Part shown: positions 25,424 to 34,230 of the stretch, in pieces
How the letters are laid out: the number at the start of each line of letters is the position of its first letter
Position numbering within the stretch: the first letter of the stretch is position 1
Assembly: GCA_020152595.1 (NCBI GenBank)
Contig: JAIGNY010001658.1
Span: 791,001 to 855,000 of the forward strand
Direction of reading: 5' to 3'
Source: Chiridota heheva
Lineage: Eukaryota; Echinodermata; Holothuroidea; Apodida; Chiridotidae
Length of the DNA stretch: 64,000 bases
The notes under the pieces: model-generated
Told to the model about the DNA's origin: nothing
The model's input: the letters and a program-made list of their open reading frames with translations, nothing else
Databases searched by the model: none
Program-made: the position numbers and the translations under genes

Positions 25424-25720
25424 GGAAATGGGTATCTTGAAATATAAATATCATTAAATGGGCATTTAAGGTTCAGAATATTCAGAAGGTTCACTGCATC
25501 TTTAACGCCAGAGAAAACACTTGTAAGGATCACAATAATGTAGAAATATACAGATGATTTATTTGGATGAATATTTATCAAAAGAGTATCTTTAGTGAGT
25601 ACAGCTTTACTACAGAACCATTCTTACGAGAACTATTTGTATTCAAATTGGACTCCTCATTAGATTCATTAAGTCCGAAACAGCTGCAAAAGCCTTTGAC
25701 ACCATTTTATCTCGCATAAG
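25424..25720. repeat. Duplicated 297-bp segment, copy 1 (partner 27156-27452)
   Basis: Both copies run from GGAAATGGGTATCTTG to TCTCGCATAAG in the same orientation with only scattered substitutions and single-base indels. The unrelated flanks begin abruptly. The segment includes the candidate transmembrane exon. Confidence 0.85.
25495..25609 (-). CDS. Possible transmembrane exon of the receptor (copy 1)
   Basis: This is a near-identical copy of the 27226-27340 candidate, with only two residue changes (V for G near the start and V for F near the end). The open frame, acceptor and donor are preserved. It lies inside a duplicated segment of about 297 bp (25424-25720 and 27156-27452). It could be an alternative exon, or both copies may be a non-coding repeat with a chance open frame. 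Confidence 0.28.
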
Positions 25721-25962
25721 GCAAGGTGGGGCAAACAAACCTCAAATCCGCCATCATGCATTGCCAATGCATTGACATTTGGGCGTTTGTGTGGCCTGCA
25801 GTTTAATCTATTTATGGCACTTCTCCGGATTTTAGAGTTATTAACAAAAAGATTAAACACAATTCTATTTGCTTACTGTTCTGGGTAACGGAAATCGGAT
25901 TTACAAAGCCCGTAGCAGGCCCGTTAGCGCAATTTTTGTTCACCATTTTATCGTCACTTAGT

Positions 25963-31400: not shown

Positions 31401-34230
31401 CCATACTCAATCAGTCATTCATATTAAAGATAGATCAGTGTTTGGAAATAGGCAGTTTTGAAATTAACTTAAAGAAAACGAACTATTTTGATATCTTTTT
31501 ATAGTAATTACCAAAATAAAGCTAAGACAGACAACGTGGATATACACTTTGTGTTTAATCTGAAAGAGTTATATGTATTTGATAGTTTCATTGTAAAGAT
31601 GTCATTTCTGATATTGGTGTTTGCCAGTTTCAGATGATTAGAATGTAACTTACCTTTTGGTATTCCACAATGCATCAACGGAGTAGACTACATTGCTGCA
31701 GTTAAAGACGTCATTCGTAGAATCCCACGTGAGACGCCAAAACAAATTGGTTCCGGTTACTACCAAGTTTCTTGGTGGGCAAAGAGCTGTTTTTGGAATC
31801 AAATAATTGAAATATTCAGGTCAACCTTTTCTTCAATGATAGCCTTTTCTTTTATGTAATTTCTTACTTTTTTTGAAAATACGAAACCAACTTACATCTA
31901 TTAGAGATGGTGTAAACATTAAAGGTGGAAAATGAATTCAGAGCTAAATTCAAAATCAAAGCTAAAATTTAAATAACTACAAATTACATACGACCATATA
32001 CTTAGGCAAGCATGATTGACTTTTAGTCGGGTATGTTGGGAAAACAAATATGAAACATAGTCTATCCGTATTACAGTTTTGCATTTTAATGCGATTTTAA
32101 TTTATCAATGATGAAGTCCCATCAAAGCCACTGCGACATAAGGGGAAATGAGATTGTATACTGACTAGTGGCACGAGAAAGGGCAGAAACGGAACAAACA
32201 TATGCAATGGTGTCACATGTGGAGGTCAAAGTTCTTATTAAGATACATCAGCACAAGAAATGGCTAGTTCAACACCCAGGATACAATCAGAAGAACAGCT
32301 ATTATCTAAGGCTATTATTTAAGGATTTTTTTTTTTTTAACTTTAATCCGAACTAGTAATTGCTCAAAGTGACTTGGGTATTAAGTCCCGGTTTTTCTAA
32401 TCTTGCGTTTTGATTTTGTTTGTTCTAAAAAGAAAATATATTTAGTGATTATGTGGACATATGCACATATCGTGCTCATAATGAAACGTTGGCAGATCAA
32501 TATTACGCAACACTTAACCCACCCCTACCCATTTATTCACGTTTTGTATACCCTATAGCACTGTTCCATTTAACGTGACCGCCGTGACAATGTGGTAGAG
32601 ATTCCACGTGCATTTGCATACAGCCTGTTACATTTTAAAACTATTTCTTTTACAGTTCACATTAAACCTTTAAACATATGAAAATGTAAACTTATAAAAT
32701 TATTAAAATTTTAGAAAACATGCAATGGTCTTATTAACAATATGTTGAGCGACTACGTCATTGGCGTTTTTGGTAATGGATCATGACCGCTTAATAAATT
32801 ATGGTATACACCATCTTAAGTAAGCATGACACTTCATACTATTTACGGTCATAGGTAAGAGGGAGTGGGCCAAATAAAATTTACCTTAATTTTTTTTCAA
32901 ATCTGTATCCGCATAGAATAAAATTTGGTCTTAAATTGTCAACTAATAATTAGGGTACACAAGTACAATTAGTTTTAATTGTAAGTATTTCTCGAAAGAA
33001 TAGGGCATAATAGCTAACTAATTTGAATTTTATACCTGTTTTGATTCAGTTTTTCTTCATTGAACTTAAAACTATTGAGTCTTAAATCTATAAAAGTTTT
33101 ATTGAAATTTATTAAAAATTTGTCATAAATAAGTATCAAATTGATGAATATACAAAAATAAGCAGACTTTTGTTCTGTTTCTTTATCAAATTGTTTCTGA
33201 ACATCATAGATCTTGAAACTCACACGTTTTACGGTTTAAAGTGCTTCTTATTTGTTGTATAAGGCCCAATAAAATGCTATTAGCTGATAACATTCGCGCG
33301 CATCAGTTTTGAGAGATTTTCAGATTTTGTTTTAAGTACCGTATTTTTGATCTTGAATCAGTTATTTAGGTCCGTACTTCGTTTCTTTCTACTTTCTACC
33401 AAAATACGAACGACTGCTTTAGATAGTTTTTAATATTTACTACACCTGATGTGGTTAACCTGATCCGGAACGCTGCAAATCACTGAAATTAATTGGCTTG
33501 AGAAAAAAAAATTGAGGAGCGTAAGGAGAAGTCTAATAAAAACAACACAACGGTAGCATATAATATTTCCAAAATGATTAAAGATAGTCTACACAAAAAG
33601 TATTTTGAACTAACAATATAATTACTTGTAATCAGTTTTTAAAGTCTATGGACAATTTCTGTATTGTTTAAAAGAATATTAAAATCTGAACAGAACAGTT
33701 TTTTTTAATTTGGAAAATAGCACTATTAGTTTTAGTGTCGGCTGATTAAAGTCCATTTATAATTCATGAAAAATGTGAATGGGCAGACAGTTCAAAATCT
33801 TTCTGTAATTCTTTAAATTTCTTTCCTAAATTATATTACCTAAAATAATGGGAAAGTTTATTTCTGCTATAATTTTAATCCAGGCATGGCAGAGAGCATG
33901 CTGCAACCACCTCAGGGAGACGTGATAGACAAAATTATTTATAAAACAAAAAACCAAGGATACCCTGTAATACATCACGTACTTTGCATAAAATATGACA
34001 ATTGATGTCCGAGTTTTAAGAAGTCGCTGCAAAATGGTCAATGTTTAACTGATCTTGATGCTACCTATGATGGTTTTCGATAGATTTTCTAGCAATTTAA
34101 GTGATGATGCCTCAGCATGTTCCTTAAAAGATGAGTGTGAAACAAACGTTCTATACTTACCATTTCCTTTGCCATTAATGCACATACACACAATCGTAAA
34201 AAGAAATAGATCTGTGAAAGTCCACATCAT
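28260..34230 (-). CDS. Class II cytokine receptor-like protein, extracellular exons (gene span)
   Basis: Exons in order on the minus strand are 34230-34161 (signal peptide), 31786-31654, 30660-30473, 28983-28761 and 28426-28260. They encode a signal peptide and two fibronectin-III-like modules. Module 1 (about residues 25-130) has P-P-R-N-L at its start, paired Trp (W40, W44), Cys53, then C79-K-K-I-P-E-T-E-C87-D-L. That Cys pair is the D1 hallmark of class II cytokine receptors and tissue factor. D-T-T-I-T-A-P marks the D1/D2 linker. Module 2 has F-Y-N-L-T-L-W and [16 protein letters not shown]. Intron phases 1, 2, 1 and an exon starting in phase 0 match the 1-2-1-0 pattern I recall for vertebrate members. 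The family binds helical cytokines and signals through JAK/STAT. The exon 4/5 join is out of frame as given. The cytoplasmic part was not found. Confidence 0.8.
28761..28983 (-). CDS. Class II cytokine receptor-like, exon 4 (D2, first half)
   Basis: Acceptor GTTGACTTGCAG and donor ATCAAG|GTAAAC bound 223 nt. It enters in phase 1, matching exon 3, and encodes T-T-I-T-A-P-V-I (linker and D2 strand A), F-S-V-S-L-H-G-P (strand B) and F-Y-N-L-T-L-W (strand C'). In the continuous frame it ends in phase 2, whereas exon 5 must be entered in phase 0. If the GGG run next to the TGG codon (Trp) had one more base, the end would read [11 protein letters not shown] in phase 0 and join exon 5 cleanly. Confidence 0.8.
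29865..30350 (+). mobile_element. Non-LTR retrotransposon 3' end in receptor intron 3
   Basis: The plus strand reads [13 protein letters not shown], then [17 protein letters not shown] and W-P-S-P with A-A-F-I-H-D-A. This is the zinc-finger end (R-L-R-T-G-H, C-x-C-G, H-I-L-x-x-C) of ORF2 of Jockey/Nimb-like LINEs, ending in a GAAGAAGAAG tail. One in-frame stop is present. It is antisense to the receptor gene. Confidence 0.75.
30473..30660 (-). CDS. Class II cytokine receptor-like, exon 3 (D1, second half)
   Basis: Acceptor ACCCCTTACAG and donor GGGATA|GTGAGT bound 188 nt, phase 2 in and phase 1 out. It carries the diagnostic [14 protein letters not shown], the disulfide-bonded motif of class II receptor D1. 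V-T-L-K-V-T-S-V (strand F) and V-S-L-N-I-A-R-D leading to the inter-domain linker follow. Confidence 0.85.
30829..31372. repeat. (AT)n microsatellite of about 540 bp in receptor intron 2
   Basis: Nearly pure TA dinucleotide with a few TTT or AAA interruptions. The Tyr-Ile open frames on both strands are artefacts. Assembly length in such a tract is unreliable. Confidence 0.97.
31654..31786 (-). CDS. Class II cytokine receptor-like, exon 2 (D1, first half)
   Basis: Acceptor CCAAAAACAG and donor AAAG|GTAAGT bound 133 nt, phase 1 in and phase 2 out. It encodes [10 protein letters not shown], the conserved start of an FN3 A strand. F-W-R-L-T-W (strand B), C-S-N-V-V-Y-S-V (strand C) and L-W-N-T-K follow. 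Several N-x-S/T sites are potential glycosylation sites. Confidence 0.82.
32126..32310 (+). mobile_element. Fragment of the same LINE in receptor intron 1
   Basis: It matches 29868-30045 in order: CACTGCGACATAAGG, ATGAGATTG, GGTCAAAG, TACATCAGCACAAGA, CAACACCCA. It stops before the zinc-finger part. Confidence 0.75.
34161..34230 (-). CDS. Class II cytokine receptor-like, exon 1 (signal peptide)
   Basis: ATG ATG TGG opens 23 codons. They have a hydrophobic core ([11 protein letters not shown], residues 8-18) followed by N-G-K-G-N, a classical signal peptide. The donor AAATG|GTAAGT leaves one base (phase 1), which joins CT of exon 2 to make Ala24. Starting at the first or second Met makes little difference. 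A phase-1 intron right after the signal peptide is usual for secreted and receptor FN3 proteins. Confidence 0.72.

Follow-up and report, generated by a model that had tools for sequence, protein, structure and literature searches.

The 64,000-nucleotide stretch of DNA analysed here (the window; contig C1655, positions 791001-855000, from a 1.10-Gb assembly of 3744 contigs) carries on its minus strand a gene that we assign, with a probability of about 0.85, to the class II cytokine receptor family (interferon, IL-10-type and tissue factor receptors) as a diverged member in a non-vertebrate animal; at least four related genes, seen in part, accompany it in the assembly. Its assignment to class II is based on the Pfam match of its first module, on a profile search against solved structures in the PDB, and on the intron phases of one of the relatives, P2. 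The presence of a receptor-like ectodomain gene with relatives in an invertebrate genome suggests that the class II receptor family is older than the vertebrates.

A receptor ectodomain gene and its relatives

An earlier note on this DNA had proposed five minus-strand exons that encode a signal-peptide-like start and two FN3-like modules, and re-reading the exons bore this out, with exons 2 and 3 forming module 1 and exons 4 and 5 forming module 2 (Table 1). The motifs named in that note were also present: the cysteine motif in module 1, the linker DTTITAP, here as part of RDTTITAPVI spanning the joint between exons 3 and 4, and LKPNTTY in module 2. The five exon frames used contained no stop codons, and the introns after exons 1, 2 and 3 were in phases 1, 2 and 1. 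Splice sites were ranked with general consensus weights that were untrained on the host species. The second intron contains a long (AT)n tract of ~540 bases (30831-31372). The cysteine pair in module 1 has the form C..I..T.C[DN][LF], which we take to be a class II receptor pattern, and module 1 of both the window gene and P2 carried this motif (CTEIKSTVCNLF in P2). The pattern, written after the match was known, occurred once in the window; in 100 versions of the window shuffled by two-base blocks it averaged 0.01 occurrences.

When the joined protein of the window gene was compared to Pfam, Tissue_fac was matched with an E value (E) of 6.5e-10 (39.3 bits, cut-off 27), and fn3 (0.011) and Interfer-bind (0.14) both fell under their cut-offs. 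In this query, as in all protein queries using both exons, an X was placed at the joint of exons 4 and 5. With module 1 alone, Tissue_fac was the sole Pfam match at E<=1 (1.2e-8, 35.2 bits). No class I cytokine receptor family was listed for the joined protein at E<=10, and the WSXWS motif was also absent from it. A scan of unspliced open reading frames (ORFs) covered 297 of the 448 filtered window ORFs in two sets of 147 and 150. Tissue_fac appeared in one ORF of each set (0.0048 and 0.031, respectively) and Interfer-bind in one of the 147 (0.033); the ORFs were unnamed and chance-looking families scored alike, so these matches fit the class II picture and add little to it.

A protein search of the whole genome with the window gene gave seven matches at E<=1, namely its own five exons and two weak matches on contig C618 (0.0104 and 0.571), which on reading by hand were module 2a exons (P1 and P2). 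Exon 4 and P1 shared 32% identity over 63 amino acids, corresponding to an E of 3.6e-7 in a database of three loci and 0.0104 genome-wide. A genome search with module 2 of P2 gave eight matches: P2 itself twice, four other places on C618 (Table 1), the window gene (0.318) and one on contig C3494 (0.378). Four relatives, P1 to P4, are thus clustered within ~103 kb of C618 (671014-774229). They are covered to different extents, with P1 and P3 represented by the module 2a exon only, P4 by modules 2a and 2b, and P2 by the whole ectodomain except the signal peptide. The weak module 2a match on C3494 (120012-120155) lies inside an open frame of 1739 amino acids and may be due to chance.

The six exons of P2, when joined, formed one frame that is entered in phase 1 and left in phases 2-1-0-1-0-1, which over the class II part of the gene gives the order 1-2-1-0-1. 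Reading by hand showed two possible donors for module 2b of P2, both in phase 1. The module 2a exon started in phase 1 and ended in phase 0 in all four relatives (P1, P3 and P4 read by hand), and the module 2b exon of P4, also read by hand, ran from phase 0 to phase 1. Exon 5 of the window gene aligned with the second-half module 2 exons of P2 and P4, and an alignment of module 2a from the five genes contained 11 invariant columns. The linker reads GPPVI in the four relatives, and TTGPPVI in P2. The P2 protein matched Tissue_fac at 5.2e-9 and its module 1 alone at 3.2e-8 (33.8 bits); no class I family was listed for P2 in Pfam. Behind the class II module, P2 carries an ordinary fn3 domain (4.7e-10).

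A profile built from the window gene, P2 and P1 was searched against the 177,635 distinct sequences of the PDB database. Class II receptors made up 10 of the 11 matches at E<=10, led by IFNAR1 (1.9e-7, 3.7e-7 and 8.2e-7), IL22RA2 (1.2e-6) and IL20RA (4.1e-5) and followed by three weaker matches to IFNLR1 (0.013-0.015) and two to IFNGR2 (0.19); the remaining match was another FN3 protein (0.082). In the profile alignment, the cysteine motif of the family coincided with the cysteine pair of IFNAR1, and the linker with IGPP. With a five-member profile there were 16 matches at E<=1, nine of them class II receptors. The best five were all class II (IL22RA2 at 5e-7), and of the other 11, from 0.042 on, four were class II receptors and seven were not.

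Searches for further members or exons gave little. None of the other exons of P1 was recognised within 8 kb, and no clear further exon of P2 was seen in the next kilobase. In a 283-kb part of C1655 that contains the window and 37.5 kb of N, there was no second copy of the window gene, with one 30-residue match at E 2.3; the relatives matched this region at 0.034 and 0.15, which we took as chance. Comparison of the receptor with viral contigs gave two pattern matches and no relative.

Table 1. Positions, strands and phases of the exons, related matches and repeats (window coordinates unless C618 is given).
Feature	Position	Strand	Intron phase	Remarks
Exon 1, start codon and signal-peptide-like stretch	34161..34230	-	1 out	donor in best 0.45% of the strand's GT sites
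Exon 2, module 1, first half	31654..31786	-	1 in, 2 out	donor best 0.05%; acceptor ordinary (best 28%)
Exon 3, module 1, second half, with cysteine motif	30473..30660	-	2 in, 1 out	acceptor best 1.1%; donor best 4.2%
Exon 4, module 2, first half (2a)	28761..28983	-	1 in, 2 out (best donor)	contains HGPATPY; acceptor best 1.6%; donor best 2.8%
Exon 5, module 2, second half (2b)	28260..28426	-	0 in, 2 out	acceptor best 11%; donor best 0.16%
Weak candidate transmembrane exon, DVGIGVFYLMTFALYFAMWFFCKLKE	19577..19746	-	1 in	no good donor behind; best candidate found
Repeat copies	25415..25723 and 27147-27455			blocks 91-98% identical; outside the gene
P2 exons	C618: 733294-733177, 732053-731863, 730120-729861, 728988-728835, 727051-726969, 726719-726482			
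Match to P2 module 2	C618: 671014-671226	+		5.5e-18
Match to P2 module 2	C618: 773987-774229	-		2.7e-13
Match to P2 module 2, weaker	C618: 701994-702224	-		3.7e-6
Match to P2 module 2, weaker	C618: 772995-773147	-		0.006

Divergence of module 2 and the interrupted frame

Several observations weigh against the class II assignment. The Pfam check suggested in the earlier note came out as expected for module 1 with Tissue_fac, whereas Interfer-bind, searched with module 2 alone, stayed below its cut-off (0.039, 14.6 bits compared to 21). Pfam listed nothing for module 2 of P2 and P4 at E<=1, nor for the P1 exon at E<=10. A cysteine pair in module 2 is common, not defining, in vertebrate class II receptors, and the window gene has no cysteine in the stretch where the vertebrate pair would stand. 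Two of the five family genes, the window gene and P2, are the only ones in which module 1 was observed. A single-sequence phmmer search of the PDB with the window protein returned two matches at E<=10, the FN3 of L1 and an antibody, with no class II receptor among them. A search of the genome with the Pfam families gave zero matches; it could find single exons only and matched no control genome, making it uninformative on absence. The sole good donor of exon 4, CAAG/gtaaac, is in phase 2 and the acceptor of exon 5 in phase 0, leaving the joint off by one base, and the donor of exon 5 is in phase 2, compared to phase 1 in P2 and P4. A coding scan of 28260-7000 for tail exons ranked mostly antisense frames of a long interspersed nuclear element (LINE) and repeats, with nothing convincing. 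A cytoplasmic tail with a JAK-binding box, which the earlier note had suggested looking for, was not found for the window gene, and no transmembrane exon could be settled.

The frame of the window gene is thus unclosed, with the phase-2 end of module 2a facing the phase-0 start of module 2b, and as sequenced the window copy encodes no continuous receptor. The phase order 1-2-1-0 claimed in the earlier note therefore stood for its first three values and was not borne out in this gene at the fourth. A candidate micro-exon of 32 nt between exons 4 and 5 (28673..28704, minus strand; acceptor best 2.0%, donor best 3.5%) still left the frame unclosed, as did the other acceptors of this intron, for which the frames were worked out by hand. 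A phase-0 GT is present inside exon 4; it was unscored and looked poor by eye.

Further downstream, 26 hydrophobic frames were listed in 30000-14500, 18 of them past exon 5, so the candidate transmembrane exon in Table 1 is likely due to chance. The earlier note had extended the gene to 25495. That limit could not be upheld, as it lies in a duplicated repeat and the supported exons end at 28260; a transmembrane exon near this position was rejected for the same reason. The frame of this repeat holds a transmembrane-like stretch, which may have misled the earlier reading.

We regard an assembly error and a truly broken copy as about equally likely explanations of the interrupted frame. In the latter case the window copy would be a pseudogene of a real receptor family that has lost its frame and tail, a reading to which we give somewhat less than an even chance. 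The two aberrant phases, one where exon 4 meets exon 5 and one at the donor of exon 5, and the lack of a settled transmembrane or tail exon would be expected from such a copy, as would its location on C1655 when the four relatives lie on C618. However, the exon frames used are free of internal stop codons, the phases of the first three introns are preserved along with most of the splice signals, the motif residues have been kept, and single-base assembly errors would give the same picture.

Mammalian IL22RA2 is a secreted, tail-less decoy. A window copy that encodes a binding protein of this kind would explain why no transmembrane exon was settled, and IL22RA2 was among the best PDB profile matches. 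We regard this as unlikely, and less likely than either an assembly error or a broken copy: the frame break inside module 2 would give a truncated product without half of that module, and the scan for further exons yielded nothing convincing.

It is very improbable that the exons belong to an ordinary FN3 adhesion protein or receptor and resemble class II by convergence. Module 2 of the window gene alone did match fn3 (0.0069, under the cut-off), and an ordinary FN3 domain stands behind the class II module of P2. In contrast, class II is what the Tissue_fac matches over the cut-off in two genes, the PDB profile matches, the cysteine motif, the linker GPPVI shared by the four relatives and the intron phases of P2 consistently point to.

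Host genome and neighbouring features

The earlier note had described the genome as apparently non-vertebrate, and the few Hox genes in the whole assembly supported this. A homeodomain query gave at least 14 matches at E<=1e-10, and of the 10 that were readable, seven were Hox-like (five on C1072 and two on C199), two looked like ParaHox (C1576) and one was of another kind; four matches without the searched motif were left unread. We take the pair on C1576 to be Gsx and Xlox, and the posterior Hox sequences on C1072 presumably correspond to Hox8, Hox9/10 and Hox11/13 as known from echinoderms and hemichordates. The host is probably an echinoderm or a hemichordate. A COX1 search of the genome gave zero matches, although the control was matched in 8 of 14 genomes. 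STAT_bind had a single match in the genome, which exceeded the cut-off (2.7e-5).

The least probable reading is that the assembly is from a vertebrate, or the contig a vertebrate contaminant, and the gene unremarkable: apart from an oyster claim, the literature consulted, as far as its texts were available, describes vertebrate class II receptors, but vertebrates have about 40 Hox genes against the seven Hox-like of 10 read here, the CpG observed/expected ratio of the window is 0.71 (at a GC content of 35.7%), STAT_bind was matched once, and a single contaminant contig would hardly account for receptor genes on two contigs.

Other features were seen around the receptor gene. At 3919-6723 on the plus strand there is a gene with four exons, read by hand, whose product is rich in tyrosine near its N terminus and has an SH2 domain (1.8e-16, joined exons); it presumably resembles the small haematopoietic SH2 adaptors. 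A reverse transcriptase at 11523-12122 (plus strand; RVT_1 in 2 of the 147 scanned ORFs, best 4e-23) appears to belong to a Jockey-like LINE. About 65 copies of a 34-base unit form a satellite at 51874-54086. Rfam and tRNA scans of the window gave zero matches, the latter with the bacterial code. Among 141 scanned ORFs in the C1655 flanks there were five FMN-dependent dehydrogenases, two reverse transcriptases, two C2H2 zinc fingers, one CAP-family protein and one integrase core, and one flank locus contained ORFs that we take to resemble a self-replicating Polinton-type DNA transposon.

Proposed function and comparison with known receptors

In intact members of the family, the two-module ectodomain would most likely bind a helical cytokine where the two modules bend towards each other, and the receptor would pair with a second chain and signal through JAK and STAT, in line with the potential JAK/STAT-linked immune role put forward in the earlier note. 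Direct support extends to the homology of the ectodomain, the structure of the P2 gene, the existence of relatives and the STAT-domain match, and the phylum, the ligand, the pairing and the signalling are what we infer beyond them. We consider the odds about even that several genes form a functioning receptor system of the interferon/IL-10 class in an invertebrate deuterostome, in which some chains join a class II module to an ordinary FN3 domain; the family and its gene structure would then predate the vertebrates, and a class II helical cytokine should as well. If this is true, invertebrate receptors that share these exon phases would push the family back before the vertebrates and show where the missing ligand should be sought.

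P2, in which an ordinary FN3 domain comes after the class II module, is to our knowledge unlike the known vertebrate members. Class I receptors of the gp130/Domeless type have a cytokine-binding module followed by FN3 domains, and the P2 layout is similar; in contrast, no class I Pfam family was listed for P2 and the PDB profile matches were to class II. The P2 layout would bear on the relation between class I and class II receptors. Tissue factor belongs to the same Pfam family as module 1 (PF01108), but was absent among the PDB matches of the family profiles.

Among the matches listed in the literature search, no title dealt with class II receptors of echinoderms or hemichordates; subscription papers were mostly outside its coverage, and genome annotations may already carry class II names. 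A survey of >400 animal species dated the IL-10 receptors to cartilaginous fish (PMC12652433); the word 'invertebrates' never occurs in the available part of its text, and the survey may therefore not have looked there. According to the accessible parts of two further sources, an acorn worm study gives type I interferons as a hypothesised vertebrate novelty (PMC10210618), and a review describes a full set of interferon receptors in the elephant shark (PMC5332411). A 2026 survey of IL6-type signalling includes echinoderms and hemichordates, and 'class II' does not occur in its available text (PMC13203501).

An oyster protein, CgIFNR-3 (IFN receptor-like 3), has been reported as an invertebrate interferon-receptor-like protein and is compared here by its description; in the part of that paper available, an in vitro interaction with CgIFNLP and activation of human ISRE, STAT3 and GAS reporters are reported (PMC8218723). 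Compared to the vertebrate class II receptors, the window gene stands in a non-vertebrate genome, its module 2 is much diverged and lacks the cysteine pair, and no tail was seen. What it has in common with IFNAR1, IL22RA2, IL20RA, IFNLR1 and IFNGR2 is the two-module ectodomain and the cysteine motif of module 1, and these receptors were the best PDB profile matches of the family. The GPP linker of the vertebrate receptors is matched in the relatives, and the phases 1-2-1-0-1 of P2 match those given for a vertebrate class II receptor, IFN-upsilon-R1, which has, in the part of the report available, the order 1-2-1-0-1-0 (PMC8863823).

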